Assembly (NCBI GenBank): GCA_017960525.1
Contig: JAGCZA010000100.1
Coordinates: 1 to 37,715, forward strand
Direction: 5' to 3'
Length of the DNA stretch: 37,715 bases
Source of the DNA: Prevotella sp.
Lineage (GTDB): Bacteria; Bacteroidota; Bacteroidia; Bacteroidales; Bacteroidaceae
Of the stretch, positions 17,951 to 36,124 are shown piece after piece; the first letter of the stretch is position 1; every line of letters begins with the position of its first letter. The position numbers were made by a program, and so were the translations under genes. The notes under the pieces were generated by a model that was not told the origin of the DNA, made no database searches, and saw only the letters and a program-made list of their open reading frames with translations.

Positions 17951-18032
17951 TTTGGACGAACCAAACCGGAAGTTTGGACGAACCAAACTATGACTTTGGA
18001 CGAACCAAACCAGAAGTTTGGACGAACCAAAC
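17951..18032. repeat. Array 1: four direct TTTGGACGAACCAAAC units, period 22 bp
   Basis: Perfect 16-base units start at 17951, 17973, 17995 and 18017. The 6-base spacers differ: CGGAAG, TATGAC, CAGAAG. Each unit is an imperfect palindrome, TTTGG-ACGAA-CCAAA. The array lies between two divergent promoters, 34 bp before the -33 element of the pectate lyase promoter and 33 bp beyond that of the HD gene. Confidence 0.95.
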
Positions 18033-18065
18033 TTTTAGGCCGAAAAAAATAAGATTCCCACTTTC

Positions 18066-18096
18066 TTGGCCAGTTCGTTTTTTTGTTGTACCTTTG
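18066..18096 (+). promoter_or_regulatory. Promoter of the pectate lyase gene
   Basis: TTG at 18066-18068, a 20-base gap, TACCTTTG at 18089-18096, followed by a leader of about 45 bases to the ATG at 18147. A good match to TTTG-N19-TAnnTTTG. Confidence 0.65.
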
Positions 18097-18146
18097 CAGG
18101 CGGATTGCGAAATGAAACTAACTAACTAACAACTAATCTTATCACA

Positions 18147-20858
18147 ATGAAACTACAGACCATTACATTGCTGGCCATTATGGCCACAACCGTACAGGCA
18201 CAGCAACTGAAGGTGGACATCAGTATCACCAACCGTCAGGCACAGGAAGTGCAGGAGCCGGGCTACACGCTCTGGCAGGCCGCACAGGGCAAGAGCACAT
18301 CCATCGACATCGACGGCATCACGTGCACACTCTCGTGCCCCAGCAGTGCCTCCTACGAGATACGCACAGGCTGGAGCAAGACGTTTATTCAGAACACCAC
18401 ATACAAGGAGCAGAACGGGCGTCTCACCTTCGACGGCATCAGTCTCGACCCCCGCACTTACGGCTCGTTCACGCTGCGCCTGGAGGGTCTGCCAGTCGGC
18501 CAGCACTCGCTGCAGACATACCATAATTGCTGGGAGAACCCCACGTCCTTCTACGCCGCCCCGATGACGGTAAAACTGAACGGTGAGGTGGTGCATGAGA
18601 ACGTGCAGCCCTCGTTCCTGCAGGCCGTGGCTGCCAACGCCACCCTGCTCGTCACGCCCTTCACCATCGCCAACGACGGCGACGCCGTGGAGTTGGAGTT
18701 CATCACCAGCGCCGACAATCCCGGCACGCCCGACAATGGCCAGGCCAACGAGTTCCAGGCCCCGCTGCTCAACGGCTTCGAGTTGAATACTGCCGACATC
18801 ACCGTGCAGGCCAAGGAACCTTATCCCGCCAACAACGATTTGCACGCCGACTGCGACGGTGGCAGCGTGACCCTCAGTTGGACTGCTGCTTCCGACAGGG
18901 TCAAGGAACATCGCCTCTACTTCGGCAAGAGTGAGGACGCTATGGCATTGCTGGCCACTACCGTCGAAACAGCCTATACCGTCAATGACCTCTACAGCGG
19001 CGACACCTACTTCTGGCGCATCGACGAAGTAGCCCAGGACGGCACCGTCAGCGAGGGCACCGCCTGGTGCTTCAAGCCCCGTCAGTTGGCCTTCCCCGAG
19101 GCCGAGGGCTACGGACGCTTTGCCAATGGCGGACGCGGCGGTAGTGTCTACCACGTGACCAGCCTTTCGGGCGACAACGTGCCCGGTACGCTGAAGTACG
19201 GTCTGCTGCTCGACGAGCCGCATACCATCGTCTTCGATGTCTCCGGCATCATCGACTTGGGTTTCGAGGCCATCTTCACCAAGCCCAATATCACCATTGC
19301 CGCCCAGACGGCTCCTGGCAAGGGCATCTGCCTGAAGGCGTCGAACATCAACATCGGCTCTGACAACATCGCTCGCTTTGTCCGCTTCAAGCGCGGTCTC
19401 GGCGTATACGGCGAGAATACGGGTAATGCGATGGGTATGAGTGGTGCCGACCACGCCATCGTCGATCACTGCACGGCAGCGTGGGGAACGGATGAGACCG
19501 TCTCAGGCCGTGGCGCGAAGAACATCACGTTCCAGTACAGCGGCATCTTCGAGGCCCTTGGCATCACCGGCCACAAGAACTACAGCGACGGCACCAACCA
19601 CGGTTATGCCGCCACCATCGACGGCCAGAAAGGCTCGTGGCACCACAATCTCCTGCTCAACTGCGAGGGCCGCAACTGGAGTATGGGCGGCGGTATGGAC
19701 GGCCAGAACCGTCCCATTGGCGGCCTTGACCTCTTCAACAACGTGTGCTACAACTGGCACAACCGCACCACCGACGGCAACTGCCACGAGGTGAACTTCG
19801 TGAACAACTATTATAAAATGGGCTCTGATACCAGGCGCAAAGAACTATTCATTATGGATTTTGAACTGGCCACCGACGTTGCCGACAACCGCACCAATAC
19901 GGCATACATCAGCGGCAATATCCGTGAGAACAAGAACCACACGCAGACCAAAGACAAGAAGGGCGATACCTATACTGCAACAGGGTATGTTCCTACCGAC
20001 TATCAATATATGGTCAACGAACCGCTCTTCCCCTCGTATGCCACCATCCATTCGGCCACAGACGCTATGAAGATTGTCACCAGTTACGGCGGTGCCTTTA
20101 TGCCCGTGCGCGACGAGCAGCACCAGCGCGTTATCCGTGAGACCCTTCAGGGTACATATACCTATGTAGGCTCGAAGTCGAAAATCAAGGGCGAGATTGA
20201 CAACGAGGCTGACATCACCGACGCCGCAAACGGCGGCTGGGAGGAATGGCCGGAGGAGACCCGTGCCGCCGACTGGGACACCGACCAGGACGGTATGCCC
20301 AACTGGTGGGAGCGTTGCGTGAACAGCGACCCTGCGACAGCCAACCACAACGACGACCCGGACGGCGACGGCTGGACGTTGTTGGAGGATTATCTGGAAT
20401 TCCTTGCCCACCCCTACGTCATCATCGAACCTAACGGTAGTGGCACCATCGACCTGAAGGAGCACTTCGCCGGTTTCTTCGGACAGAACGGCAATAGCGT
20501 CACGCCGACCTTTACCACCGAAAACTTGGAGGGCGGCCTCTTTGCCACCAGCATCGAGGGCACCACGCTGACCGTCAATGCCATCAAGCCTGACACCGAG
20601 AGCGTGGGCGTCTTCAATATCACCTGCTCCGACGGCACCACCACCTTCACTCAGCGCTTCGGTGTGGCCATCACCAGTGGCACCGAGACCACGGCCATTA
20701 CTGACCGCGCCTCAGAGTATGGCGGTGTGGTCAGCCGTGAGTTCTTCACCCTCGACGGCAAGTGCGTCTCAGAGATGCAGCCTATGGAGGTCTATCTGAT
20801 GAAAGAGACCCGCGCCGACGGCACCACTCGCACCACGAAAGTTATGAAGAGTCGCTAA
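18147..20858 (+). CDS. Secreted multidomain pectate lyase (PL1-like)
   Basis: A 903-residue protein. Signal peptide at 1-18 (ending VQA). Residues about 20-222 form a beta-rich domain that looks like a carbohydrate-binding module. Residues 228-311 are a fibronectin type III domain (GGSVTLSWTAASDRVKEHRL, TYFWRIDEV). The lyase domain (about 313-700) begins FPEAEGYGRFANGGRGGSVY and has the parallel beta-helix phrases TIVFDVSGIIDL, NITIAAQTAPGKGI, RFVRFKRG, DHAIVDHCTAAWGTDETVS and HHNLLLNCEGRN. A calcium-binding-type stretch DTDQDGMPNWWERCVNSDPA follows, then a C-terminal region ending FFTLDGKCV...GTTRTTKVMKSR, similar to tails of Prevotella exported enzymes. It would cleave polygalacturonate by beta-elimination outside the cell or at its surface. 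No susCD pair is visible nearby. Substrate is inferred from the family. Confidence 0.85.
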   Translation: MKLQTITLLAIMATTVQAQQLKVDISITNRQAQEVQEPGYTLWQAAQGKSTSIDIDGITCTLSCPSSASYEIRTGWSKTFIQNTTYKEQNGRLTFDGISLDPRTYGSFTLRLEGLPVGQHSLQTYHNCWENPTSFYAAPMTVKLNGEVVHENVQPSFLQAVAANATLLVTPFTIANDGDAVELEFITSADNPGTPDNGQANEFQAPLLNGFELNTADITVQAKEPYPANNDLHADCDGGSVTLSWTAASDRVKEHRLYFGKSEDAMALLATTVETAYTVNDLYSGDTYFWRIDEVAQDGTVSEGTAWCFKPRQLAFPEAEGYGRFANGGRGGSVYHVTSLSGDNVPGTLKYGLLLDEPHTIVFDVSGIIDLGFEAIFTKPNITIAAQTAPGKGICLKASNINIGSDNIARFVRFKRGLGVYGENTGNAMGMSGADHAIVDHCTAAWGTDETVSGRGAKNITFQYSGIFEALGITGHKNYSDGTNHGYAATIDGQKGSWHHNLLLNCEGRNWSMGGGMDGQNRPIGGLDLFNNVCYNWHNRTTDGNCHEVNFVNNYYKMGSDTRRKELFIMDFELATDVADNRTNTAYISGNIRENKNHTQTKDKKGDTYTATGYVPTDYQYMVNEPLFPSYATIHSATDAMKIVTSYGGAFMPVRDEQHQRVIRETLQGTYTYVGSKSKIKGEIDNEADITDAANGGWEEWPEETRAADWDTDQDGMPNWWERCVNSDPATANHNDDPDGDGWTLLEDYLEFLAHPYVIIEPNGSGTIDLKEHFAGFFGQNGNSVTPTFTTENLEGGLFATSIEGTTLTVNAIKPDTESVGVFNITCSDGTTTFTQRFGVAITSGTETTAITDRASEYGGVVSREFFTLDGKCVSEMQPMEVYLMKETRADGTTRTTKVMKSR

Positions 20859-20879
20859 ACTCTAAACACTCAACACTCA
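20859..20879. repeat. Short heptamer array between pectate lyase and hypD
   Basis: ACTCTAA, ACACTCA, ACACTCA in register fill most of the 30-bp gap. The same units occur in the porL-porM gap at 26929-26956. Confidence 0.7.
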
Positions 20880-20888
20880 ATAAGAATT

Positions 20889-23288
20889 ATGAACTTCAGC
20901 ATCAAGCACCCCGAAAACGAAGGAGGTATGAATGAGCGCATCAAGCGTCTCCGCCAACAGAATTTCGACACCCCAACCACGCTCAGCATCGAGCGCGCCT
21001 TGATAGAGACCGCGTTCTACAAGAAGAACTATGGCACGATGTCCACGCCCGTGCTCCGTGCCAAGAACTTCTACGAGATATGCAAGCGCAAGACTATCTA
21101 TATCGGCGAAGACGAACTGATTGTGGGCGAGCGCGGGCCGAAGCCCAAAGCCGTGCCAACGTTTCCGGAGTTGACGTGCCACTCGGTGGAAGACCTGCAC
21201 ACGCTGAACGAGCGCGAACTGCAACGCTACACCATCTCGCAGGAGGACATCGACACCTACGAGCGTGAGGTCATCCCCTACTGGCAGGGAAAGACGCAGC
21301 GTGAGCGCATCTTCAACCACGTCTCGCAGGCGTGGGAGGAGGCCTATCACGCCGGTGTCTTTACGGAGTTTATGGAGCAGCGCGCCGCCGGCCACACGGC
21401 TATGGACGGCAAGATGTACCACGAGGGCCTGCTTGACGTGAAGGCCCGCATCGAGGCCAAAATCAAGAGCCTCGACTACATCAACGACCCAGAGGCCACC
21501 GACAAGCAACAGGAGTTGGAGGCAATGGCCATCTCGTGCGATGCTGCCATCCTCTTTGCCGAAAGGCACGCCGAACTGGCCGAACAGATGGCTGCCAAAG
21601 AGCAGAATCCGCAACGCAAGGCCGAACTGGAGAAGATTGCCGACGTCTGCCGCTGGGTGCCCGCCCACGCCCCGCGTGACCTGTGGGAGGCCATTCAGAT
21701 GTACTGGTTCGTGCACCTCGGCACCGTGACGGAGTTGAACGGCTGGGACTCGATGAACCCCGGCCACATCGACCAGCACCTCTTCCCCTTCTACGAGCAG
21801 GGGCTGAACGACGGCACGCTGAACCGCGACAAGGCCAAGGAACTGCTCTCCTGCCTCTGGATAAAGTTCAACAACCAGCCCGCGCCGCCAAAGGTGGGTG
21901 TGACGGCCTTGGAGAGCGGCACTTACAACGACTTCACGAACATCAACATCGGCGGCGTCGACCGCAACGGCAACAGCGCCACCAACGAACTGTCGTATAT
22001 GATTCTGGAGATTCAGGAGGAATTGCACGAATTGCAGCCCGGCCTCTCTATCCATATCGCCGACGTCACGCCCGACGACTTCCTGCTGGAGGGCATCAAG
22101 GTGATACGCCAGGGGCACGGCTATCCCAGCATCTTCAACCCCGACACCTATATCAAAGAACTTGTGCGCGAGGGCAAGACCCTGGAGGATGCCCGCGAGG
22201 GCGGCTGCTCAGGCTGCATCGAGGTGGGCGCTTTCGGCAAGGAAGCCTATCTGCTTACGGGCTACCTCAACACACCGAAGATTCTGGAGATTACGCTTAA
22301 CAACGGCATTGACCCGGAGACGGGCAAGAAACTTGGGCTGGAGACCGGCGACCCGCGCACGTTCACCAGTTTCGAGCAACTCTATGACGCCTGGCACCAG
22401 CAGATGGAGTACTTCGTCAATCTGAAACTTTCGGTCAACAACTACATCGAGCGGATGTTTGCCCTCTACGCCCCTGCCACGTTCCTCTCGCTCTACATCG
22501 ACGACTGCATCGAGAAGGGTCGCGACTACTACAACGGCGGCGCCCGCTACAACACCACCTATATCCAGTGCACGGGCCTGGGCACCATCACCGACTGCTT
22601 CACCACCCTGAAGAAGCACGTCTTCGAGGACCATCGCTACACAATGGACGAGATACTCGAAGCCTGCAATAACAACTGGAAGGAACAGGAAGTGGTTCGC
22701 CAGTACATCCGCAACCACACACCGTTCTTCGGCAACGACGACCCGTATGCCGACGATATTGCCGTGCGCGTCTACGACGACCTGGTGAAGGCCATCGAGG
22801 GGCGCCCGAACACTCGGGGCGGCAAAACGCAATTGAATATGCTCTCCACCACCTGCCACAACTACTTCGGCAGCGTCTGCGGCGCCACGCCCAACGGCCG
22901 CTTCGCCCATTTCGCCATCAGCGACGGCACCAGCCCCGCCCACGGCAGCGACAGCCACGGCCCCACCGCCGTCATCAAGTCGTTGGGCAAACTCGACCAG
23001 ACTAAGAGCGGCGGCACGCTGCTCAACGTCCGCTTCGTGCCCCAGTTGTTGAGGCGCGAGGAAGATATGAAGAAACTGGGCTCGCTCATTCGCACCTACT
23101 TCCGCTTCGGCGGCCACCACATCCAGTTCAACATCGTCGATACGGCCACGCTCCACGACGCGCAGAAGCACCCAGAGAACTACCGCGACCTCCTGGTCCG
23201 CGTGGCCGGATATAGTGATTATTTCAACGATATGACGGAGCAGTTGCAGAACGAAATCATCGCCCGCACGGAGAACGAGGATTTATAG
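20889..23288 (+). CDS. hypD: Glycyl radical enzyme, probably trans-4-hydroxy-L-proline dehydratase
   Basis: A 799-residue glycyl radical enzyme. The radical site is RVAGYSDYF near the C-terminus (Gly774). The thiyl loop is GCSGCIEVGAFGKEAY with Cys443, Glu445 and a Tyr at +16 (Tyr459), the arrangement I recall for HypD; pyruvate formate-lyase has two adjacent Cys and diol/glycerol dehydratases have GCVEP. HypD dehydrates hydroxyproline to pyrroline-5-carboxylate, allowing use of collagen or plant-wall hydroxyproline. The loop differs from the HypD form I remember (GCVETGCFG) at two places (Thr to Val, Cys to Ala), so a neighbouring subgroup is possible. The start could also be Met14 (20928), directly preceded by AAGGAGGT. 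No radical SAM activase or proC is adjacent. It begins 30 bp after the pectate lyase gene, with which it may share a transcript. Confidence 0.75.
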   Translation: MNFSIKHPENEGGMNERIKRLRQQNFDTPTTLSIERALIETAFYKKNYGTMSTPVLRAKNFYEICKRKTIYIGEDELIVGERGPKPKAVPTFPELTCHSVEDLHTLNERELQRYTISQEDIDTYEREVIPYWQGKTQRERIFNHVSQAWEEAYHAGVFTEFMEQRAAGHTAMDGKMYHEGLLDVKARIEAKIKSLDYINDPEATDKQQELEAMAISCDAAILFAERHAELAEQMAAKEQNPQRKAELEKIADVCRWVPAHAPRDLWEAIQMYWFVHLGTVTELNGWDSMNPGHIDQHLFPFYEQGLNDGTLNRDKAKELLSCLWIKFNNQPAPPKVGVTALESGTYNDFTNINIGGVDRNGNSATNELSYMILEIQEELHELQPGLSIHIADVTPDDFLLEGIKVIRQGHGYPSIFNPDTYIKELVREGKTLEDAREGGCSGCIEVGAFGKEAYLLTGYLNTPKILEITLNNGIDPETGKKLGLETGDPRTFTSFEQLYDAWHQQMEYFVNLKLSVNNYIERMFALYAPATFLSLYIDDCIEKGRDYYNGGARYNTTYIQCTGLGTITDCFTTLKKHVFEDHRYTMDEILEACNNNWKEQEVVRQYIRNHTPFFGNDDPYADDIAVRVYDDLVKAIEGRPNTRGGKTQLNMLSTTCHNYFGSVCGATPNGRFAHFAISDGTSPAHGSDSHGPTAVIKSLGKLDQTKSGGTLLNVRFVPQLLRREEDMKKLGSLIRTYFRFGGHHIQFNIVDTATLHDAQKHPENYRDLLVRVAGYSDYFNDMTEQLQNEIIARTENEDL

Positions 23289-23296
23289 GCATCTGA

Positions 23297-23357
23297 GTTT
23301 GGACGAACCAAACCCCTACTTTGGTTCGTCCAAACTACCAGTTTGGTTCGTCCTGAT
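23297..23357. repeat. Array 2: three 22-bp-period palindrome units, first two facing each other
   Basis: Units start at 23298 (TTTGGACGAACCAAAC), 23320 (TTTGGTTCGTCCAAAC, opposite orientation) and 23342 (TTTGGTTCGTCC, then degenerate). Spacers are CCCTAC and TACCAG. Units 1 and 2 form a perfect 16-bp inverted repeat with a 7-base loop. The array fills most of the hypD-porP gap, so it could end the hypD transcript or control porP. Confidence 0.9.
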
Positions 23358-23416
23358 TTTGGACATCTTTTTGCCACCATAAATAATAAATGCCGTAATC
23401 ACACGTTATAATAAGC

Positions 23417-24355
23417 GTGTTTAGGCGTAGGCTATGGATATTGCTCCCGATGCTGATGGGCTCGCTGTATGCGGGTGCCCAGTACGACCCGTCGTTCAGC
23501 CATTACTGGGCGATGGAGCCGTTTTTTAATCCTGCCGCATCGGGCAAGCAGGAGAAAATCAATGTCAGCGTGGCCTACAATATGTCGATGGTCGGCTTTG
23601 AGCACAATCCACGTACCATCTACCTTTCCGGCGATATGCCTTTCTATGCCCTCGGCGCCTATCATGGCGTGGGCGTTCAGATGGTGAACGACGATATTGG
23701 TGCCTTCTCCCACAAGAAATTCTCGGTGATGTATGCGTTCAAGCAGAAACTGCTCGGGGGCGTTCTCAGCATCGGCGTGCAGCCGGCTATGCTCAGTGAG
23801 AACCTGAACGGCTCGAAACTGGAATTTGAGGAGTCCGGCGACCTGGCTTTCTCTACGTCGGAAGTCACGGGAACAGCCTTCGACCTGAGTGGCGGCATCT
23901 ACTATCAGCGCAATAACTGGTATGCCGGACTGTCGGTTCAACACGCGCTGGCGCCCACCGTGGAACTGGGAGAAACCAATGAGTTGAACCTGATGCAGTC
24001 GTATTATTTTACGGCAGGATGCAATATTCGACTTAAAAATCCGTTTCTAACAATACAGCCGTCAGCGCTGCTCCGTTCAGACGGGGTTGGCTATCGTGCC
24101 GACATCACAGCCCGCCTGACCTATACCTACGAGCAAAGGCTGATGTATGCTGGCTTAGGCTACAGCCCTACCAATTCCGCCACGGTCTACCTTGGCGGCA
24201 AGTTCCACGGAATTATGTTGGGCTACAGTTACGAGATTTACACCTCGGCTATCAGCCTTCGCAACGGCAGCCACGAGTTGCACGTGGGTTACCAGACCGA
24301 CGTCAACCTGTTCAAGAAAGGCAGGAACAAGCACCAGAGCGTAAGACTGCTTTGA
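23417..24355 (+). CDS. porP: T9SS outer-membrane protein PorP/SprF family
   Basis: A 312-residue protein with a signal peptide (LWILLPMLMGSLYAGAQ) followed at once by YDPSFSHYWAMEPFFNPAAS, the diagnostic opening of PorP/SprF proteins, and then a beta-barrel of alternating strands ending in aromatic residues. The family docks the PorKN ring or specific cargo at the outer membrane. It starts at GTG 23417; no ATG fits in frame upstream. First gene of the T9SS core cluster porP-porK-porL-porM-porN, with a 78-bp gap to porK. It lies after palindrome array 2. I see no convincing TAnnTTTG promoter in front of it. Confidence 0.9.
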   Translation: MFRRRLWILLPMLMGSLYAGAQYDPSFSHYWAMEPFFNPAASGKQEKINVSVAYNMSMVGFEHNPRTIYLSGDMPFYALGAYHGVGVQMVNDDIGAFSHKKFSVMYAFKQKLLGGVLSIGVQPAMLSENLNGSKLEFEESGDLAFSTSEVTGTAFDLSGGIYYQRNNWYAGLSVQHALAPTVELGETNELNLMQSYYFTAGCNIRLKNPFLTIQPSALLRSDGVGYRADITARLTYTYEQRLMYAGLGYSPTNSATVYLGGKFHGIMLGYSYEIYTSAISLRNGSHELHVGYQTDVNLFKKGRNKHQSVRLL

Positions 24356-24433
24356 AATGAGGGCGGCGTGATGACAGTGTGATAACGATATAACGTGATA
24401 ACGAAAAAACGATAATAACGAAATAACGACAAG

Positions 24434-25909
24434 ATGGTAAAAACAATGTTCAAATCTATAGTTGGAGGTGGAATGTTCCTTCTCATTTTGTTGCTCACCT
24501 CCTGCTTTGGTGGCAAGGAGACAACAGCATCGGGCGGTGAACTGACTGGCTCCAGCGGCAAGTCGTTCTCGGAACCGGCACCCTATGGTATGGTCCTCAT
24601 CAAGCGTGGCCATCTGAAGATGGGTATGGAAACGCCCGATTCGCTTTGGGGCAAGGAGACACCGGTGAGAGACATCTCCGTGGAGGGATTCTGGATGGAC
24701 GATACCGAGATTACCAATTCTGAGTATCGCCAGTTCGTGAACTATGTGCGCGACAGCATCATCCGCGAGCGTCTGGCCGACCCCAATTACGGTGGCGACG
24801 AGAGTTTCAAGATTGAGGAAGACAAAAACGGCGACCCCATCACGCCTCACCTGAACTGGAAGAAGCCCATCCCCCGCAAGCCTAACGAGGACGAGCAGAG
24901 GGCTATTGAGAGTGTCTACGTCGTCAATCCTGTAACGGGCGAGAAGATGCTTGATGCCAACCAGATGAACTTCCGCTATGAGGTGTACGACTATACGGAG
25001 GCCGCCCTGCGCCGCAACCGCCTGAACCCCGAGGAGCGCAACCTGAACACCGATATCCCCGTGGATCCCAATGCCGAGGTGTGGATTTCAAAGGACACCG
25101 CCTATATCAACGACGAGGGAAAGATCGTGCGTGAGACCATCAACCGCCAGTTGACCGGCCCGTGGGACTTCCTTAATACGTACATTATTAATATATACCC
25201 CGACACGACTTGCTGGGTGAACGACTTCCCCAACGCCGACAACGAGGTGTATATGCGCAACTATTTCTCCAACGCGGCCTACAACGAATATCCCGTGGTG
25301 GGTGTCACTTGGGAGCAGGCCAACGCCTTCTGCCAGTGGCGCACCGACTTCCTGCTCAAGGGCCTCGGCCCGTCGGCCCGCTTCGTGCAGCGTTACCGTC
25401 TGCCGACGGAGGCCGAATGGGAGTATGCCGCACGCGGCAAGGACGGCACAGAGTTCCCCTGGGAGAATGAGGATGTGGCCAGCGGCAAGGGCTGTTTCTT
25501 TGCCAATTTCAAGCCTGAGGGCGGCAACTACACCAAGGACGGCAATCTCATCACCTCGAAGGTGGGCATCTATAGCGCCAACAGCAACGGCCTCTTCGAT
25601 ATGGCCGGCAACGTGGCCGAGTGGACATCGACCATCTATACCGAGGCAGGCGTCGATGCTATGAACGACATCAACCCGCAACTGAAGTACAATGCCGCCA
25701 AGGAAGACCCTTATCGGTTGAAGAAGAAGAGCGTGCGCGGCGGCTCGTGGAAAGACCCCGAAAGTTACATTCGCTCGGCCTGGCGCAGCAGCGAGTTCCA
25801 GAACCAGCCCCGCTCCTTCATAGGCTTCCGTTGCGTCCGCTCTCTGGCCAGCACCAGCAGTGAGAAGGCAAAGCCGGCCAAGGCGACAGTAAAGAAATCA
25901 AAGAAGTAA
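24434..25909 (+). CDS. porK: T9SS ring lipoprotein PorK/GldK
   Basis: A 491-residue lipoprotein: hydrophobic leader ending LLTSC (Cys24). The body is an FGE-sulfatase/formylglycine-generating-enzyme fold: YGMVLIKRGHLKMG, FWMDDTEITNSEYRQFV, YPVVGVTWEQANAFCQWR, RLPTEAEWEYAARG, NGLFDMAGNVAEWTS, VRGGSWKDPESYIRSAWRSS and IGFRCVRS. In GldK/PorK the fold is structural: with PorN it forms the periplasmic ring under the outer membrane. The C-terminal tail is basic (KPAKATVKKSKK). The 19 bases before its ATG are nearly identical to those before porL. Confidence 0.95.
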   Translation: MVKTMFKSIVGGGMFLLILLLTSCFGGKETTASGGELTGSSGKSFSEPAPYGMVLIKRGHLKMGMETPDSLWGKETPVRDISVEGFWMDDTEITNSEYRQFVNYVRDSIIRERLADPNYGGDESFKIEEDKNGDPITPHLNWKKPIPRKPNEDEQRAIESVYVVNPVTGEKMLDANQMNFRYEVYDYTEAALRRNRLNPEERNLNTDIPVDPNAEVWISKDTAYINDEGKIVRETINRQLTGPWDFLNTYIINIYPDTTCWVNDFPNADNEVYMRNYFSNAAYNEYPVVGVTWEQANAFCQWRTDFLLKGLGPSARFVQRYRLPTEAEWEYAARGKDGTEFPWENEDVASGKGCFFANFKPEGGNYTKDGNLITSKVGIYSANSNGLFDMAGNVAEWTSTIYTEAGVDAMNDINPQLKYNAAKEDPYRLKKKSVRGGSWKDPESYIRSAWRSSEFQNQPRSFIGFRCVRSLASTSSEKAKPAKATVKKSKK

Positions 25910-25935
25910 CAACGTGATAACGAAATAACGCCAAG

Positions 25936-26886
25936 ATGACTAAGTATAGCAAATTCAATATTATCTATCTGCTGCAGAGGTGGCTCGACAGCGTGCCCGG
26001 GCAGACGTTTATGAATTACGCCTACAGTTGGGGTGCTTCTATCGTGATTCTGGGTGCACTCTTCAAACTGACCCACCTGCCGGGAGCCAACTTTATGCTG
26101 TTCCTGGGTATGGGTACTGAGGTGCTTGTGTTCTTCATTGCCGGTTTCGACCGACCATTCGACAAGACCGAGGACGGCAAGGAACTGCCCACCCACGTTG
26201 GCGAAGATTTGCAGACCGAAGTCGAGACACAGGGCCAGCAGACTACCATCATCGGTGGTGGCGGCAGTGGTACTATCGTCATCGGCGGCGGCTCTGCCGA
26301 AGTGACTGGCGAAGAGGGTGCCGAGGTCCACACAGAAGGTGGTGGCGGCGGTATCATCGGCGGCGGTGGCTACATTGGCGGCGGCGGTTACGTCGGCGGT
26401 GGTGGCGGCTACATTGGCGGTGGCACAGTTGGCGAAGGCGAGGCACCTGCAGTCGAAGGCGACGGAACCATTTCTGCCGGCGGTGGCGGCATCATCGGCG
26501 GTGGTATCATCGGTGGCGTGGTTGCTCCTCAGCAGCCCGAACTGCCCGAAATCGACCCCGAAGAGATGGAGGAGGCCACGCAAGGCTATGTGGAGCAGTT
26601 GAAGGCTCTTACCGAAACTCTGAAGAAGGTGTCGGAGCAGAGCGAGCGCCTGACCCGCGACAGCGAGGAGATGGAGAACCTGAACCGCACGCTGACCGGC
26701 ATCTGCAAGGTTTACGAGATGCAACTTAAGGGCGCCAGCCAGCAAATTGGCACCATTGACCAAATCAACGACCAGACCCGCAAGATGGCCGAGCAAATCG
26801 CCGAACTGAACCGCATCTATGCCCGTATGATTGAGGCTATGACCACCAATATGCCCCAAGTGAAAGGTTCAGAGTTAAACGTTTAG
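25936..26886 (+). CDS. porL: T9SS inner-membrane motor protein PorL/GldL, with long glycine-rich linker
   Basis: A 316-residue protein. Two membrane helices at about 27-45 and 52-70; the second carries Glu62 in FLGMGTEVLVFFIAGF, matching the conserved Glu of the GldL proton-driven motor. The C-terminal cytoplasmic part (about 201-316) is a coiled coil. Between them, residues 107-195 are a glycine-rich, low-complexity stretch with units such as GGGGYIGGGGYVGGGG and IIGGGIIGGV, encoded by GGCGGY-rich DNA. PorL and PorM form the rotary complex that energises T9SS. The last residues (GSELNV) and the stop are made from heptamer repeats that continue into the porM gap. Confidence 0.95.
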   Translation: MTKYSKFNIIYLLQRWLDSVPGQTFMNYAYSWGASIVILGALFKLTHLPGANFMLFLGMGTEVLVFFIAGFDRPFDKTEDGKELPTHVGEDLQTEVETQGQQTTIIGGGGSGTIVIGGGSAEVTGEEGAEVHTEGGGGGIIGGGGYIGGGGYVGGGGGYIGGGTVGEGEAPAVEGDGTISAGGGGIIGGGIIGGVVAPQQPELPEIDPEEMEEATQGYVEQLKALTETLKKVSEQSERLTRDSEEMENLNRTLTGICKVYEMQLKGASQQIGTIDQINDQTRKMAEQIAELNRIYARMIEAMTTNMPQVKGSELNV

Positions 26887-28529: not shown

Positions 28530-28559
28530 GAAATGATAAATGATATAAAGGAAAGAACT

Positions 28560-29657
28560 ATGAAGAATAATATGTTTCGAATGAATAACAGATGGATGAT
28601 AGTGATAGGTTTATCATTTATCATTTGTCATTTATCATTTAGTGAAGCGTTTGCCCAGCCGAAGAAGAGTCGTGTGCAGCAGCAACAGAAGGCTGCCCAG
28701 CAGAAACAGCAGGGCGCTACTTCTCAGGGTGGTATGACCAAGCGAATGGAGATTATGTACCCCACTGCTGTGGATATGCCTGAAGAGGTGGTTTGGCGCC
28801 GCGACATCTACCGCGAAATCGACCTCAACAAGGAGGAGAACGCCGGACTCTACGACCCCGTGGAGCCGCAGGGCAAGCGTCTGAACCTCTTTACCTATAT
28901 ATTCAAGTTGGCATTGGGCAACTACATCCCTGTCTATGAATACAACCTTGACGGCAATGAAGTATTGGAGGCCTCGGCAAAGGTTGATATGAAGACCATT
29001 TTGGATAACTATCACATCTTCTACGAGGAGCAGGACGGCAAGGTGAAGGTGGACAACAGCGACATCCCTTCGGCTGAAGTGAAGATGTACTACCTGAAGG
29101 AGAGTGCCTACTACGACCAGGCCAACTCGTCGTTCCACATCAAGCCGATAGCCCTCTGTCCCGTTATGCTCCGTGAGGACGATTTCGGTGGCGAGGCAGC
29201 CAAGTACCCGTTGTTCTGGGTGAAGTACAGCGAGGTGGAACCCTATCTGAGCCGTCAGACCATCAAGACCAGCGACGTGAATGACGCTGCCATGATGAAC
29301 CTTGACGACTATTTCACCCTGAACAAATACAAGGGCAATATCTATAAGACGGCCAATCGACTGGGAAGGACGCTGGCACAGGTAGCCGGTAACGACTCTA
29401 CCAAGTTCACCAACGAACAGAAACGCATAGAGGCAGAGTTGCAGGCTTTCCGTGACGGTATCTTTGGCAACAAGGAGAAAACCGATTCCATAGACAGTAT
29501 CGCTGTGGCTGATCCTAAGAAGGCTAAGGCACTCCGACAGCAGCGGGCTAAGGAACAGAAGAGTACCACACGGGCGACCCGCAGCCGCAAATCGTCGGGT
29601 GGAGGTTCCTCTTCTGGCGGTTCTTCCCGTGTGTCCGTCCGTCGTGAGAGACATTGA
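28560..29657 (+). CDS. porN: T9SS ring protein PorN/GldN
   Basis: About 365 residues from the ATG at 28560, which follows AAAGGAAAGAACT; an in-frame ATG also exists at 28533. It has a signal peptide (WMIVIGLSFIICHLSFSEAF then AQ) whose middle is encoded by four TCATTTR heptamers. The mature part has the GldN phrases VVWRRDIYREIDLNKEENAG, LFTYIFKLALGNYIPVYEYN and AVGF-like VKMYYLKESAYYDQANSSFH, ILALCPVM-type ALCPVMLREDDFG and LFWVKYSEVEPYLSR. The C-terminus is basic and low complexity (Arg/Ser/Gly-rich). It pairs with PorK in the periplasmic ring. Confidence 0.9.
   Translation: MKNNMFRMNNRWMIVIGLSFIICHLSFSEAFAQPKKSRVQQQQKAAQQKQQGATSQGGMTKRMEIMYPTAVDMPEEVVWRRDIYREIDLNKEENAGLYDPVEPQGKRLNLFTYIFKLALGNYIPVYEYNLDGNEVLEASAKVDMKTILDNYHIFYEEQDGKVKVDNSDIPSAEVKMYYLKESAYYDQANSSFHIKPIALCPVMLREDDFGGEAAKYPLFWVKYSEVEPYLSRQTIKTSDVNDAAMMNLDDYFTLNKYKGNIYKTANRLGRTLAQVAGNDSTKFTNEQKRIEAELQAFRDGIFGNKEKTDSIDSIAVADPKKAKALRQQRAKEQKSTTRATRSRKSSGGGSSSGGSSRVSVRRERH
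28614..28641. repeat. Heptamer array TCATTTR x4 inside the porN signal peptide
   Basis: TCATTTA, TCATTTG, TCATTTA, TCATTTA in exact register encode IICHLSF and flanks, the hydrophobic core of the signal peptide. Confidence 0.8.
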
Positions 29658-29691
29658 AGTTTTAACGTTAAACCTTTAATTATAATCGATT

Positions 29692-30336
29692 ATGAAGAAA
29701 TTTATTAGCACAATGATTGTGGCAGTGGCTCTGATGGCAGCCACACCCGCACTAGCCCAAGGCTTCAAGTTTGGTGTCAAGGGCGGTTTGAATGTCACCA
29801 GTATGAGTTTCGACAGTTTCAACAATGCCGTTGATATGGCCAAGAAAAACAAGGCCGGATGGTATATCGGACCCACGGTGAAGTTCTCATTGCCGATTGG
29901 TCTGGGCTTCGATGCAGCCGCCTTCTACGACCAGCGCAACACTCAAATGGAGGGTAACGACATCAAGCAGAAGACAGTCTATATCCCTATTAACCTTCGC
30001 TACAACATCGGTCTGGGAGGTCTGGGCAGCGTCTATGTGGCTGCCGGTCCTCAGTTCGGCTTCAACGTGGGCGACACCGACATCGACGTGATGTATCTTG
30101 GAGAGTCGAAAGAGCAGATTAAGGACAATTTCCAGATCAGGAAATCTACTTTAGGCATCAACCTTGGAGCAGGCGTTTCGCTCCTGAAGCATCTTGAGGT
30201 GGGTTTGGTGTACAACATTCCTTTCGGCAATACTGCCGATGTGAAGGGTGGCTTGAAGGATATGTACGAAGATCTGAAGTACAAGTACGACGTGAAGAGC
30301 AACACCTTCCAGGTGTCTGCCGCCTTCTATTTCTAA
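29692..30336 (+). CDS. Outer-membrane beta-barrel protein (PF13568-like)
   Basis: A 214-residue protein with a clear signal peptide (MKKFISTMIVAVALMAATPA LAQ, cleavage after ALA) followed by GFKFGVKGGLNVTSMSF, the usual opening of Bacteroidetes small barrels often called 'PorT family'. Alternating strands and a final Phe (FQVSAAFYF) fit BAM-dependent insertion of an eight- to ten-strand barrel. It follows porN by 34 bases and may be on the T9SS transcript, but the sequence gives no sign that it is the true PorT. Confidence 0.8.
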   Translation: MKKFISTMIVAVALMAATPALAQGFKFGVKGGLNVTSMSFDSFNNAVDMAKKNKAGWYIGPTVKFSLPIGLGFDAAAFYDQRNTQMEGNDIKQKTVYIPINLRYNIGLGGLGSVYVAAGPQFGFNVGDTDIDVMYLGESKEQIKDNFQIRKSTLGINLGAGVSLLKHLEVGLVYNIPFGNTADVKGGLKDMYEDLKYKYDVKSNTFQVSAAFYF

Positions 30337-30351
30337 GAAACCGTCAAGACT

Positions 30352-32601
30352 GTGTTTGTCGACGTCATCCTTCCTTTGCCGCTCGACGGCCAGTTCACAT
30401 ACGCTGTTCCGCCTTCGCTTGAAAAACAAGTGGAGGCGGGGCTGCGTGTTCTTGTGCCATTTGGCAAAAACAAGACCTACGTGGGAATTGTCACCCGGCT
30501 GCATGAAGAAAAGCCGGAGGCCTACGAGGTGAAAGACATCTTGCAGTTGCTCGATGAAAAGCCCATTCTGCTACCAGCGCAGTACCGGCTTTGGCAGTGG
30601 ATGGCCGACTACTATATGTCGCCCATCGGCGAGGTCTATAAAGCGGCGTTGCCGTCTGGCCTGAAGGCTGAGGAGGGGTATCGGGCGCGTACAGAGACTT
30701 ACATCCGGCTCACCCCGAAGTATCAGAACGAGCAGGCCCTTCACATCGCCCTCGATATGCTGGTACGGGCCAAAAAACAGCAAGAGGCGTTCATCGCCTA
30801 TCTGTCACTCTCACATTGGGACCTCATCGGGAGCGAAACATCAATTGTGGAGATTACCCGCGAGGAACTGCTGAATGCTTCTGGTGCCACGTTGGCCACC
30901 GTGAACGCCTTGCAGGCAAGAGGTATGCTGGAGACTTACGAGGTGGAGGTGGGGCGTCTGAATCACGGTGGCGAGCCGCACCCGGAACTTACGAAGCGGT
31001 TGAACCCAGCGCAGCAGGAAGCCTACAATCAGATTCTGATGTCGATGCTGAAGAAGCAGGTGACCCTGCTGCACGGCGTCACCAGCAGCGGAAAGACAGA
31101 AATATACATCCACCTCATACAGCGCGAGTTGGAGCACCACCGACAAGTGCTCTATCTTTTGCCAGAGATCGCCCTTACTGTGCAGATGATGGATCGTTTG
31201 CACCGTGTTTTTGGCAATCGTCTGGGCATTTACCACTCGAAATACAGCGACGCCGAGCGGGTTGAAATCTGGCAGAAACAACTTTCTGCCGACCCCTACG
31301 ACATTATTCTTGGCGCCCGCTCTGCCGTGTTCCTTCCTTTCCAGCGCCTCGGTCTCGTCATCGTGGACGAGGAACACGAAACCAGTTACAAGCAACAGGA
31401 TCCGATGCCCCGCTATCACGCAAGAAGCGCGGCCATTATGCTGGGCGCAAAGGTTCTTCTCGGTACTGCCACGCCTTGTGCCGAGACCTATCACAACGCC
31501 CGTACTGGCAAGTATGGCCTGGTGGAACTGACTGAACGCTATCAAGGCATTGAATTGCCCGACATACAAGTGGTGGACACGAAGGACTTACAGCACCGCA
31601 AGATGATGCGCGGCCCCTTCTCACCGCTGTTGCTGGCCCGTGTGCGCGAAGCCCTGGAGCGGGGCGAGCAGGCCATCCTCTTCCAGAACCGGCGCGGATG
31701 GGCACCGATGGTGATGTGCAGTCAGTGCGGATGGGTACCTCGTTGCGAGTATTGCGATGTCAGTTTGACGCTGCACCGCACCACCAACCAACTCTCGTGC
31801 CACTATTGCGGATTCACCTACTGCATACCCACTGAGTGCCCGGCCTGTGGCAGCAAGGACTTGAAGGGTAGGGGATACGGCACAGAGAAAATAGAGGAAC
31901 AGATACGCGACATACTGCCTGACGCCCGTATTGCCCGTATGGACTACGACACCACACGCACCCGGAATGCTTACGAGCGCATCATTGATGACTTCGCTGC
32001 CGGGCGCACCAATCTCCTCATCGGCACGCAAATGATCAGCAAGGGGCTTGACTTCGACCGCGTGGCCGTAGTGGGCATACTCGATGCCGACACGATGCTC
32101 AACTACCCCGACTTCCGAGCCTACGAACACGCCTTCATGATGATGGCTCAGGTGAGTGGGCGGGCAGGACGCAAGAACAAGCGCGGACTCGTCATCCTGC
32201 AGACCCGTAACCCCAATCTGGAGGTCATCCGCCAGGTGGTGCGCAACGACTTTCCGTCGTTCTTCCGCGACCTTATGGCCGAGCGGCAGGCGTTCCGCTA
32301 TCCGCCCTTCTGCCGGCTAATCTACGTCTACTTGAAGCACAAGAGCGACACGCTGGCAGATACCGCAGGACACGAAATGGGCAGCCGGCTGCGCCAATGG
32401 TTTGGCAACCGTGTACTGGGACCCGACAAGCCCGCCGTGGCCAAGGTGAAGACGCTCTGTATCCGCAAGCTCGTCATCAAACTGGAAAACGGTCTCGACC
32501 TGGCTCAGGCCCGCCACTATCTGAGGCTCGCCCAGCAGCAGATGCTGCAGGACAAGCGTTATGCATCGCTACAAATCTACTACGACGTAGATCCGCTATA
32601 G
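30352..32601 (+). CDS. priA: Primosomal replication helicase PriA
   Basis: A 749-residue superfamily 2 helicase that restarts stalled replication forks. The N-terminal DNA-binding domain begins VDVILPLPLDGQFTYAVP; Walker A is HGVTSSGKTEIYIHL; the DEAH-like box is LVIVDEEHETSYKQQDPMPR; motif III is LGTATPCAE. Four Cys pairs bind two zinc ions (CSQC, CEYC, CHYC, CPAC). Late motifs IGTQMISKGLDFDRV and QVSGRAGRKNKRGLVILQT are intact. The start is GTG 30352; an in-frame TAA (the stop of the previous gene) is only five codons upstream, so no longer form is possible. Gap of 15 bases to the barrel gene. Confidence 0.97.
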   Translation: MFVDVILPLPLDGQFTYAVPPSLEKQVEAGLRVLVPFGKNKTYVGIVTRLHEEKPEAYEVKDILQLLDEKPILLPAQYRLWQWMADYYMSPIGEVYKAALPSGLKAEEGYRARTETYIRLTPKYQNEQALHIALDMLVRAKKQQEAFIAYLSLSHWDLIGSETSIVEITREELLNASGATLATVNALQARGMLETYEVEVGRLNHGGEPHPELTKRLNPAQQEAYNQILMSMLKKQVTLLHGVTSSGKTEIYIHLIQRELEHHRQVLYLLPEIALTVQMMDRLHRVFGNRLGIYHSKYSDAERVEIWQKQLSADPYDIILGARSAVFLPFQRLGLVIVDEEHETSYKQQDPMPRYHARSAAIMLGAKVLLGTATPCAETYHNARTGKYGLVELTERYQGIELPDIQVVDTKDLQHRKMMRGPFSPLLLARVREALERGEQAILFQNRRGWAPMVMCSQCGWVPRCEYCDVSLTLHRTTNQLSCHYCGFTYCIPTECPACGSKDLKGRGYGTEKIEEQIRDILPDARIARMDYDTTRTRNAYERIIDDFAAGRTNLLIGTQMISKGLDFDRVAVVGILDADTMLNYPDFRAYEHAFMMMAQVSGRAGRKNKRGLVILQTRNPNLEVIRQVVRNDFPSFFRDLMAERQAFRYPPFCRLIYVYLKHKSDTLADTAGHEMGSRLRQWFGNRVLGPDKPAVAKVKTLCIRKLVIKLENGLDLAQARHYLRLAQQQMLQDKRYASLQIYYDVDPL

Positions 32602-32632
32602 AAACGGAATCATAAACCAACAATAGAGAAAG

Positions 32633-35600
32633 ATGAAGACTATCAAAAAGAAAATGGCCATATTGGCCTTGCTACTGCTCCCGACCGTGATGGCGTGGGC
32701 AGGAAACGTTAGTGAGACTGACGCAATGAAGAAAGCGCAGCAGTTTCTCGACAAACGTGGAACTGGTGGCGCCATCCAGATGAAAGCGGCTGCCAGAGGC
32801 CCGCGCAGGGCAGCTCCGACAGCTGTTCAGAGCGATTACTACGTGTTCAACGTAGGGAGCGGCGACGGCTTCGTCATCGTCAGTGGCGATGACCGCACGA
32901 CAGATATTCTTGGCTATGCCGACAGCGGCAGATTCGACGAGGAGAACATGCCCGACGGGCTGCGCTATCTGTTAGACGGCTATGCCGAGCAGATGGCCTG
33001 GCTTGATGCCCATCAGGCTGAGGTTAGTGCTGCTCCTGCAGCTATTTCGCCAGCCCGTTCCCCCATTGCGCCGCTCATTGAGACACGCTGGGATCAGGGC
33101 GCACCCTACAACAACCTCTGCCCGGAGATTGATGATGAGAAAACCGTAACGGGTTGCGTAGCCACTTCTATGGCGCAGCTGATGTACTACCACAAGTGGC
33201 CTACGGCTGCATGCACCGACATTCCTGGCTATACTACTAATACAAAAAACAAAAATGAAGCGAGCTATTCATTGTCCGTAAGCGGCCTGACGTCTACCTC
33301 TTTCAACTGGGGAGCTATGACCAATACATACGCTTCTAACGCTACGGGTGCTGCCGCCGATGAGGTTGCAAAGCTGATGAAGTACTGTGGTGTCTCGCTG
33401 CAAATGACTTATGGCCTTAGGCAAAATGGCGGTTCGGGTGCTTTTAGCGAAGCCATCCCCTTTGCCCTGAAAACTTACTTTGGCTATGATGGCGGTGTGC
33501 GCCATACCTATCGTAAATGCTATAGCTATACCGAGTGGGTAGATCTTATCTATAGTGAACTGGCCAGCAGACGGCCAGTCGCCTTGCACGGGCAGAGTAT
33601 GGGCGGCGGTCACTCCTTCGTGTGCGATGGCTACGACACCGACGACTACTTCCACATCAATTGGGGATGGGGCGGTGACGGTAACGGTTATTTCCGCCTC
33701 TCAGTCCTTCAGCCTTATGTGCAGGGTGCCGGAGGCTCGTCAACACTCGATGGTTTCAGCTTTAGCCAAGGCGCTGTCATTGGTATTCAGCCTCCCGTAG
33801 ATGGCAACAAGGACTACTGCCTCTCGCTCGAAGGTCTGCGATTTGGCTCGTCTGATGCAAGTGCCAGCAAAAACTTTACCCGCGAAAACAAGACAGATAA
33901 CTTTACCGGCATCAGCCTTTACTATGTGGTTTATGACTATTACTATGGCAGCAATGCTTTCGACTATGCCGTGCAATTGGTGGACGCTAATGGTGGTATT
34001 GTGCAGTCTTTCCATACTGAGGAAAATGTACAGATGAGTTGGAATCAGACAAATACCGAGCCCAATAATACCAACAGTAAGGGACGTACCCTCTCTGGAC
34101 TCTCCATCCCTTCGTCTGTGGACGACGGAACTTATTATATCAAGGTGATGAGCCGCCCTGCTGGCACCAGCAACTGGCAGGAGTGCTACGACGGTGACCG
34201 CTACCAGCTGACCGCCGTCATCAGCGACAACAGTCTGACCATCACTGTGCCCATTCCTGCCACTATTAATCCTGCTTCGGCCACTCTCGACGTTAGTGGC
34301 AACCTGACCCAAGGCTACGAGCAGGAGGTGACGGCTACTATTACTGGTGGTAGTATTGACTTTCATGACGATGTCATCCTTCGCGTGAATGGCAAATCAG
34401 TTATGGGTAAGGTGCTCGACGTACCAGCTGGACGGTCTGTGGTTGCACGCTTTGTCTATACACCACTCACAGCGGGTGACAACGTGCTTACTCTATGGTC
34501 TAGAAGTACTAACTCACAGATTGGTTCAAGTACTACTGTATCCATTACAGAAAGTGATGCCACCAGCAACCTGACGCTAACCGTTAATTATACCATTGGT
34601 AATTTGAGTGATGGTAAACTCTATGGAAACGCTTTGCGCGTAACGGTTAGGGCTAACAATCCTTCGACAGAGAACACTTATGTTGGCAGACTGAATTGTT
34701 CGCTGCGGGAGTATGCTAGTGCTGATGCAAATATTGATGACTATGTCAGTAACTACGTAACCAAATACATCGTTATTGAGAAGGATAGTTATACTGATGT
34801 CGGCTTCGATTATATGGAATTGGAAGTAGGCAAGTTTTACCGATTGCGATTCAGCTATTCACAGAACTATATAGATGATGGCAAGATGAAAACTCGTCTC
34901 GTAGCGTTTGACCCTACTGAACCTTATGAGATGATAGAGGGCTATAAGACCTACAACGCAGACGGAACAACAACTATCCTGTCTAAACCCGTTAATAATG
35001 CTATCAATGGTGGCACAGCCCTGTGTATAGACTTGACAGGACTCACAACAATCCCAACCATCACCCCCAGCTCGAACACCAACTGCGTCTACCTCTTGCC
35101 TGATGGAGTGGAGGTTCCGGCCTCGCTGAGTGGTTGTAATGTGGTTTGCGGTAGTACAGCGAACAATCTGACGCTGACCGACGGCGAAGACTTCTTCACC
35201 CCCATTGCTTTCACCGCCGAAAATGCCTCATACACCCGCACCTTCACCCTCGCAGCGGCTGGCACAAGCGGCTGGAACACGCTTTTCCTGCCCTTCACCG
35301 CTACGACTGTCTCTTGCGTGGGCTTGGGCGATGTCGACTGGTTCCAGTCTGCTGGCGATACTGATGGCAACTTCTGGCTCCGAAGCTTTACTGGTGACGG
35401 TGAGGGCAGCGTCACTTTCGACTATGCCAACACCACCTCTATTGCCGCCAACACGCCTTATATCATTGCCGTGCCTGGCTCGGACTTCGGCAGCTGGCAG
35501 ATGACCGGAAAGGAGGTCACTTTTAGTGGAACTAATGTCAGCATCGCTGCCACTTCGCCTGTTTCTGGCGTCAGCGGCAACCACTACAAGTTTGTGGGCA

Positions 35601-35899
35601 GCACCGTCGGCACGACCGTTTCCAACGTCTATGTGCTCAACGACAAGGGCAGCAAGTTCGTAAAGACTACTGACAAAGAAGTTGAACCCTTCCGTGCCTG
35701 GTTCACGCCCATCAGCATCAGTTCACTCAGTCGCCCATCGCTTGTCATCTTCAGCCCTGAAGAAACGGGAATAGAACTCCCCTCTGCTGAAGGCGAGGAG
35801 AGCGGCTGTTACTTTACCCTCGACGGGCGCAGGCTTCCTGCCGCTCCCTCCGTTCCAGGCATCTATGTGTTGAATCGTAAAAAAGTGATTGTCAAATGA
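32633..35899 (+). CDS. Secreted C10 cysteine protease (streptopain/interpain-like), 1088 residues
   Basis: Signal peptide 1-23 (ends AWA). Residues about 24-130 are the C10 propeptide (VSETDAMKKAQQFLDKRG, YYVFNVGSGDGFVIVSGDDR). The catalytic domain has Cys175 in TVTGCVATSMAQLMYYHKWP and His327 in GQSMGGGHSFVCDGYD, followed by YFHINWGWGGDGNGYFRLS with the Asn/Trp pair of the papain-like site. After about residue 390 come long beta-sandwich regions and a tail ending YFTLDGRRLPAAPSVPGIYV then LNRKKVIVK, close in style to the pectate lyase tail and suited to T9SS or surface sorting. It digests extracellular protein. It lies 31 bases after priA with no clear promoter. Its stop overlaps the start of a 49-codon ORF. 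Confidence 0.9.
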   Translation: MKTIKKKMAILALLLLPTVMAWAGNVSETDAMKKAQQFLDKRGTGGAIQMKAAARGPRRAAPTAVQSDYYVFNVGSGDGFVIVSGDDRTTDILGYADSGRFDEENMPDGLRYLLDGYAEQMAWLDAHQAEVSAAPAAISPARSPIAPLIETRWDQGAPYNNLCPEIDDEKTVTGCVATSMAQLMYYHKWPTAACTDIPGYTTNTKNKNEASYSLSVSGLTSTSFNWGAMTNTYASNATGAAADEVAKLMKYCGVSLQMTYGLRQNGGSGAFSEAIPFALKTYFGYDGGVRHTYRKCYSYTEWVDLIYSELASRRPVALHGQSMGGGHSFVCDGYDTDDYFHINWGWGGDGNGYFRLSVLQPYVQGAGGSSTLDGFSFSQGAVIGIQPPVDGNKDYCLSLEGLRFGSSDASASKNFTRENKTDNFTGISLYYVVYDYYYGSNAFDYAVQLVDANGGIVQSFHTEENVQMSWNQTNTEPNNTNSKGRTLSGLSIPSSVDDGTYYIKVMSRPAGTSNWQECYDGDRYQLTAVISDNSLTITVPIPATINPASATLDVSGNLTQGYEQEVTATITGGSIDFHDDVILRVNGKSVMGKVLDVPAGRSVVARFVYTPLTAGDNVLTLWSRSTNSQIGSSTTVSITESDATSNLTLTVNYTIGNLSDGKLYGNALRVTVRANNPSTENTYVGRLNCSLREYASADANIDDYVSNYVTKYIVIEKDSYTDVGFDYMELEVGKFYRLRFSYSQNYIDDGKMKTRLVAFDPTEPYEMIEGYKTYNADGTTTILSKPVNNAINGGTALCIDLTGLTTIPTITPSSNTNCVYLLPDGVEVPASLSGCNVVCGSTANNLTLTDGEDFFTPIAFTAENASYTRTFTLAAAGTSGWNTLFLPFTATTVSCVGLGDVDWFQSAGDTDGNFWLRSFTGDGEGSVTFDYANTTSIAANTPYIIAVPGSDFGSWQMTGKEVTFSGTNVSIAATSPVSGVSGNHYKFVGSTVGTTVSNVYVLNDKGSKFVKTTDKEVEPFRAWFTPISISSLSRPSLVIFSPEETGIELPSAEGEESGCYFTLDGRRLPAAPSVPGIYVLNRKKVIVK

Positions 35900-36045
35900 A
35901 TAAGAAAACCTACAAGAAGCCCGCGACAAGAACTGTCGCCCTTCATCACCAGCAGCATTTGCTTACTGCTACTGAAACATCACCTCGTCCTTCCGCCAGT
36001 TTTATGTCCAATCCCGGCATTGGCGATACCGACGACGACGAATAG
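35896..36045 (+). CDS. 49-residue small protein translationally coupled to the C10 protease
   Basis: The ATG (35896-35898) overlaps the protease TGA in ATGA, so ribosomes finishing the protease can restart here. The product begins MNKKTYKKPATRTVALHHQQ, then HLLTATETSPR, and ends GIGDTDDDE before TAG. It has no signal peptide: a Lys-rich start, a central hydrophobic HLL, and an acidic tail. I recall similar short Bacteroidales products of the form 'KKxYxKPxxxVxxLxHxxxLL' with acidic ends, but cannot check. Possible roles are a peptide precursor, a protease partner or inhibitor, or a regulator. It ends before palindrome array 3. Confidence 0.6.
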   Translation: MNKKTYKKPATRTVALHHQQHLLTATETSPRPSASFMSNPGIGDTDDDE

Positions 36046-36064
36046 GAATAAATCAACTCAAAAG

Positions 36065-36124
36065 TTTGGTTCGTCCAAACTCCCACTTTGGACGAACCAA
36101 ACTCATAGTTTGGACGAACCAAAT
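36065..36124. repeat. Array 3: three 22-bp-period palindrome units, first two facing each other
   Basis: Units start at 36065 (TTTGGTTCGTCCAAAC), 36087 (TTTGGACGAACCAAAC) and 36109 (TTTGGACGAACCAAAT); spacers TCCCAC and TCATAG. Bases 36064-36079 and 36087-36102 form a perfect 16-bp inverted repeat with a 7-base loop. The last unit overlaps the -33 region of the next gene. Confidence 0.95.

Follow-up and report, generated by a model that had tools for sequence, protein, structure and literature searches.

REP/BIME and REPIN elements are extragenic repeats with species-specific sequences, and REPs are located after stop codons, while the palindromic elements of Rickettsia (RPEs) are longer single elements. 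We know of no means by which dispersed palindromes spread outside the RAYT families. REPs are described as short palindromes that usually number more than 100 per genome (PMC2817692), and the REP doublets described in SBW25 are inverted and measure 71 and 110 bp (PMC3116915). For the CGTC REPs, neither the transposase nor the means of spread was known to the authors of PMC3733652, and the repeats of R. conorii are described there as intragenic. BrickBuilt, a repeat of Porphyromonas gingivalis, is reported to consist of 23-nt units without spacers, to possess a leader and a tail, and to occur in 19 copies in ATCC 33277 (PMC4596501).

Here we describe arrays of a palindromic unit, TTTGGACGAACCAAA, in a window of 37,715 nucleotides (Prevotella sp., assembly GCA_017960525.1, contig JAGCZA010000100.1, positions 1 to 37,715) and in the genome from which this window comes (G000; 3.97 Mb in 146 contigs), referred to below as the source genome. 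Like the GTAG and CGTC REPs, the arrays are high-copy, palindromic and extragenic in the source genome, but their units end in TTTG/CAAA arms and have no terminal GTAG or CGTC tag; CGTC is found only inside the core, and it is absent from the cores of several other species, such as GAGGCTT and CTTACGG. Whereas REPs form singlets or inverted doublets, the array units stand in 22-bp register, and, in contrast to REPs and REPINs with their RAYT, no RAYT was found beside the arrays. The replicating unit of a REPIN is two inverted palindromes, whereas 51 of the 61 arrays with at least two units have ends in the same orientation and only 10 have inverted ends. The arrays may resemble RPEs in lying inside genes in some species (in genomes other than the source genome), but they differ from them in being modular 22-bp arrays and in that none overlaps a called gene in the source genome. 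With BrickBuilt they share their occurrence in Bacteroidota, an intergenic position, a short tandem unit and length change by whole units; unlike BrickBuilt, they have palindromic units of 22 bp, each including a 3-bp word that varies, and neither a leader nor a tail was found. Among the papers listed in searches of the open-licence PMC literature, none was seen to describe this repeat family: those containing at least two of four sequence words had neither 15-mer, and the searches by topic listed no such description.

Arrays in the window and in the source genome

The window holds nine exact copies of TTTGGACGAACCAAA and one degenerate copy, grouped in three arrays in which all steps measure 22 bp from start to start (Table 1). 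Both mismatches of the degenerate copy fall in the outer arm (TTTGGTTCGTCCTGA). The original prediction had listed ten copies of a 16-mer at an exact 22-bp period; the three arrays and their steps were confirmed, but the 16-mer or its reverse complement is present at full length in only 7 of the 10 copies, being incomplete at 36109 (which ends AAAT), at 23320 (preceded by C, not G) and at the degenerate copy. When up to two mismatches were allowed, the window gave 19 pattern matches, counted on both strands so that a single site may be counted twice, compared with a mean of 0.88 in 100 shuffles (sd 1.0, maximum 4).

Table 1. Positions of the array units in the window, with their orientation and surroundings.
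Feature	Position	Strand	Remark
Array 1, unit 1 (TTTG-GACGAAC-CAAA)	17951..17965	+	exact
Array 1, unit 2	17973..17987	+	exact
Array 1, unit 3	17995..18009	+	exact
Array 1, unit 4	18017..18031	+	exact
Array 1 with bounding AAAA / CTTTT tracts	17947..18036	.	gap between two divergent genes
Array 2, unit 1	23298..23312	+	exact; 9 bp past stop of glycyl-radical enzyme gene 20889-23288
Array 2, unit 2, inverted	23320..23334	-	exact on - strand
Array 2, unit 3, degenerate	23342..23356	-	two mismatches
Array 3, unit 1, opposite in orientation to units 2-3	36065..36079	-	exact; predicted fold pairs unit 1 with unit 3, z -9.2
Array 3, unit 2	36087..36101	+	exact
Array 3, unit 3	36109..36123	+	exact
Array 3 with bounding AAAAG / TTTTT	36060..36128	.	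sequence

Downstream of array 2 lie the genes of a T9SS operon (PorP, GldK, GldL, GldM and GldN), and downstream of array 3 a gene with a Peptidase_C10 match, in agreement with the gene names first assigned, whereas the supposed pectate lyase next to array 1 (gene 18147-20858) is a PelZ match at 74.6 bits, far below the cut-off of 840. Arrays 2 and 3 are each also just downstream of a gene, array 3 beginning 19 bp past a 49-codon frame read by eye. This frame (35896-36045, by eye) overlaps the preceding stop and precedes the C10 protease gene. The gene that ends before array 2 is of the trans-4-hydroxy-L-proline dehydratase-type glycyl radical enzyme class and stands immediately 5′ of the T9SS PorP-GldKLMN genes.

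In the whole source genome the pattern TTTGGNYGNNCCAAA matched 353 times and its reversed control 0 times. Array statistics were taken from stretches totalling 1.37 Mb, about one third of this genome, part of which had been picked from contigs with known matches or T9SS genes. This sample contained 63 arrays and 209 units, degenerate units counted in, and 57 of the 63 arrays comprised 3 or 4 units. Unselected stretches amounting to 328 kb contained 8 arrays; judged from these two counts, the genome would hold very roughly 100-180 arrays in total, if the sample is representative. Exact 15-mers lying at most 70 bp apart in the 1.37-Mb sample were separated by 22 bp in 63 cases and by 44 bp in 14, and by no other step, the 44-bp step usually enclosing a degenerate unit between the exact copies. 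The exact 22-bp spacing, which the original prediction had taken as a sign of an operator, was thus kept throughout the third of the genome that was sampled. In 80 loci from other records, with the recruiting pair excluded, the steps were 22 bp (38 times), 44 bp (twice) and 66 bp (once).

The repeated frame can be written AGTTTG-N7-CAAACT-N3, that is, a unit of about 19 bp which together with a 3-bp word makes up 22 bp. In the source genome the core is GACGAAC in 171 of 209 units, and minority cores are GACGGAG (8 units) and CCGTAAT/G (3 units). The N3 words (n=146) fall largely into five classes, ATG/CAT (39), CCC/GGG (29), ACC/GGT (21), AGG/CCT (16) and CAC/GTG (7), which together hold 112 of the 146 and occur in both orientations in similar numbers; only 13 of the 146 words have complementary outer bases. 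Adjacent words were identical in 14 of 85 pairs, compared with 6.1 by shuffling, and adjacent word pairs were common to different arrays 74 times against 33 expected, as would be expected from unit duplication and array copying.

An A-tract was present at the left end of 33 of the 63 arrays and a T-tract at the right end of 33, both tracts being found in 15 (AAA background, 6.4% of intergenic 4-mers). Beyond these tracts no flank was common to most arrays, and the array flanks were mostly unrelated. A candidate outer flank motif was rejected: it exceeded the cut-off in 50-58 of 126 flanks, compared with 26-31 for the reversed controls, and its consensus contained little beyond T-runs. Long flanking stems were likewise rejected as a general feature, having been found in 3 of 44 arrays and in about 3% of shuffled pairings.

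Some loci showed further repeats. At L294:18452 in the source genome, a third arm sequence, AGTTATATACCTTATAACT, forms a 22-bp repeat with 3-base words between the copies. An interspersed intergenic repeat of about 60-80 bp is common to the flanks of four arrays (L036:14851, L037:12796, L039:12003 and L058:10985). Repeats of AAATCGGYCATTAG occur in four loci, on both sides of the array in L061 (10289, 10392) and L270 (506, 618), on one side in L096 (1474), and as an inverted pair about 430 bp from the array in L236 (834, 895); these repeats are perhaps an outer element.

Placement relative to genes and promoters

Genes were called with a crude caller of our own making (coding fraction 0.85 to 0.86), which misses some genes as well as the true start at 36174; by these calls, arrays overlapping genes in the source genome numbered 0 of 44 and 0 of 63 in two sets. 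For the 47 of 63 arrays situated between called genes that are 100-800 bp apart (345 gaps), the counts and the expectation from gap length were 31 and 30.8 for tandem, 15 and 13.8 for divergent, and 1 and 2.4 for convergent gaps. Gaps upstream of a start with a TAnnTTTG box, which we take to be the Bacteroidota -7 element, contained 34 arrays against 32.7 expected. The box itself was found in 51 of 63 array-bearing upstream gaps, compared with 4-13 of these gaps for six of seven decoy motifs and 34 for the remaining one, CAAAnnTA.

Arrays lay upstream of the TAnnTTTG box in 48 of 51 cases, whereas random placement would give about 37, and 26 of the 51 lay 60-119 bp upstream of it, compared with 9.2 under a plain random null. 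This excess was considered as a regulatory sign and rejected, because it disappeared once the null was also kept out of the region that begins 60 bp upstream of the box and extends to the start codon: the promoter distances were then 16.5/11.5 observed and 16.6/11.4 expected, in a comparison from which the 6 of 34 arrays violating this avoidance were omitted. Array placement matches that of a random model from which promoters and 5′ UTRs are excluded. Of 35 arrays in tandem gaps, 30 were nearer the upstream stop codon, at a median of 26 bp past it, and the strand of the core was independent of that of the gene (19 vs 17).

The families of 48 genes starting beside an array were mixed and, among 25 of 99 families, included ribosomal protein S15, NadA, DXP synthase and GH2, 50 random genes serving as a rough control for neighbour families; GH2 glycosidases accounted for 4 of the 48 genes. 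The T9SS tail model gave 14 matches in the genome. Enrichment of the arrays at promoters of T9SS cargo, as originally anticipated, was not observed: none of 13 sampled T9SS-tail genes had an array in the upstream DNA examined, which extended up to 3 kb but covered less than this for three genes (C81, C77 and one on C35), and for the gene on C119 the scripted frame start fails to enclose the matched stretch. One sampled T9SS-tail gene had an array 53 bp past its stop.

Distribution among relatives and comparison of sites

Among 299 genus genomes, the own-type pair pattern was found in the source genome and in two others, those two with another core. The more general frame TTTG-N7-CAAA at 22 bp was found in 37 of 398 genus genomes, the source genome included, although the reversed-pattern control also matched in 7 of the 398 and some of the 37 positives are single matches or plain tandem repeats (G120). 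In an order-wide draw of 247 genomes, none of the 246 others carried the frame. The matches listed in a scan of named genomes were mainly Prevotella MAGs, many of them from ruminants, together with a few Bacteroides, Xylanibacter brevis and one Treponema MAG. In this last genome, outside the Bacteroidota, a 22-bp GTTTG-N7-CAAAC tandem (L250) lies within an open frame, beyond the YrdC domain of a Sua5-type gene; its spacers are identical, and it may be a plain tandem repeat.

The core varies by species. GACGAAC in the source genome is replaced elsewhere by GAGGCTT, GTTACGG, CTTACGG, CTCCGTC, AACGCTC and others, and several cores recur across different species. A geometry scan revealed a palindrome unrelated in sequence, TGGAA-N7-TTCCA, whose copies are likewise spaced at 22 bp in 6 of 199 genus genomes (controls 0); this TGGAACA-NNN-TGTTCCA-type family occurs in G141, G166, G056, G035, G186 and G116, and G141 contains both families. 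When any palindrome pair at 22 bp was accepted, 3 were found in 200 kb of G016, none in 200 kb of G024 and none in 89 kb of G034, the last two genomes also showing no 22-bp peak, indicating that not every member of the genus shows this geometry. Once the first frame had been masked, 9 of the 11 22-bp pairs in other species' loci were the first family read from the spacer centre, and the other two (L265) belonged to the TTCCA family.

At one orthologous site, the array of X. brevis was longer than that of G116 by exactly one 22-bp unit. When array sites of other species were projected on the source genome, 3 of 61 flanks were occupied, compared with 3 of 57 for the opposite-side control, the 61 flanks not being independent since loci repeat (e.g. 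L155/L156/L246). Three-unit arrays in L247 (~1969) and L274 (~1057) occupy the same place in an orthologous outer-membrane efflux gene of two species; their cores differ and one spacer is identical, and we conclude that this shared site reflects a change of core in place or a hot spot, and not a fresh insertion. Of 103 loci from other genomes, 31 had an array traversed by an open frame of at least 120 residues, some of these frames being antisense. Pfam matches were obtained for 11 of 15 such array-containing proteins; in 10 of these the array did not fall within the best-matching domain, whereas in the remaining one (L075) it did. Homologues of the L251 protein carry a different loop at the place of its array-encoded peptide. 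A 1.75-kb test query caught no clean empty site in 59 other genomes, its best match being 82% identical over 584 bp. In two alignments at empty sites, divergence was so high that neither ends nor target duplications could be recognised, and it likewise obscured the insertion ends in the alignments of five further locus pairs.

A link with a TnpA-REP-type transposase, another point on which the original prediction could be checked, was not observed. The Y1 transposase PF01797 matched in 12 of 20 genomes but, at the threshold used, in neither of the array-rich genomes G289 and G297, and no array was found within about 1.5 kb on each side of 22 Y1 loci. Viral contigs contained no copy of the source-genome core and one stretch with the generic frame, and searches of phage and plasmid records gave no match to array 1, which makes a phage or a plasmid an unlikely vehicle.

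Origin of the arrays

We consider it likely, at a rough probability of 0.77, that the arrays are a dispersed non-coding family of palindromic repeats of the REP/RPE kind, built from a rigid 22-bp module and spread by a putative mobiliser. A REP-like palindromic element had been named at the outset as the rival to an operator, and it is supported in kind. The arrays are abundant and strictly phased at 22 bp, their intergenic placement mostly avoids promoters, and their cores are species-specific; no functional theme was found, one length difference between close relatives is unit-wise, and some arrays in other species lie within reading frames. We propose that arrays would spread to new places as hairpin-forming copies through the putative mobiliser, and that they would lengthen or shorten via exchange between adjacent units, which would preserve the 22-bp step; selection would then remove those arrays that hit promoters or 5′ UTRs. 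Several observations argue against a repeat family of this kind. The 3-bp words depart strongly from randomness, contrary to what would be expected of neutral spacers; the L247/L274 site is common to two species; neither an empty site nor a mobiliser was found in the searches described above; and the 60-119 bp excess stands when no avoidance constraint is imposed (26 vs 9.2), the avoided zone itself being broken by 6 of 34 arrays.

What is conserved might be the 22-bp geometry of arm, 7-base core, arm and 3-base word, and not the sequence, with a dedicated recombinase- or transposase-like enzyme other than RAYT copying or swapping the cores. We regard this as a tentative and rather improbable proposal, although unrelated palindromes that share one geometry, and cores that are exchangeable in place while arms and spacing are kept, form the pattern expected for an enzyme recognising arms two turns apart.

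The arrays could also be bound by a protein that structures the chromosome or belongs to the nucleoid, for which palindromes phased at 22 bp would be required but the identity of the downstream gene would not matter. Hundreds of copies, a strict phase, the prevalence of 3-4 units per array and a core nearly invariant in the source genome are consistent with such sites. By contrast, positions are not kept between species, the exact frame is absent from 361 of 398 genus genomes, and some arrays elsewhere lie within reading frames, so that we consider this role unlikely.

When the three window arrays were folded as single strands, their predicted folds were much stronger than those of shuffled sequences (z -5.2 to -9.2), array 3, with its inverted first unit, forming one long stem. 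These folds, and the position of arrays just past stop codons in tandem gaps, are what would be expected of tandem transcript hairpins with a role in RNA termination or protection, such as REPs are known to have. However, the arrays have no strand preference relative to genes, 15 of 47 lie in divergent gaps, which is about the length expectation, and between window positions 17500 and 36500 no Rfam match exceeded any family's gathering score; an element acting at the RNA level is accordingly very unlikely.

The least probable reading is the one first put forward, a phased operator for secreted enzymes and their secretion machine, in which every palindrome would be bound by a dimeric regulator, with cooperation between copies separated by two helical turns: the strict phase, the avoided promoter-to-start zone with most arrays upstream of the box, and the genes that follow the three window arrays speak for it, but there are some 350 copies with mixed downstream genes and no link to T9SS cargo, the null that avoids the promoter zone fits fully, tandem arrays lie mostly near the upstream stop, sites are occupied between species no more than in the control, and the core word changes between species. 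The operator idea fails the tests set beforehand, spacing excepted, and the features of a transcription-factor operator, namely fixed promoter placement, a related gene set and retention at orthologues, were not found in the arrays.

The arrays call for caution, since a phased palindrome in front of an appealing gene may be no more than an ordinary repeat, and promoter annotation in Prevotella is affected. Among bacterial repeats, dispersed palindromes are common, and their means of spread can be approached through a family in which spacing is better conserved than sequence.
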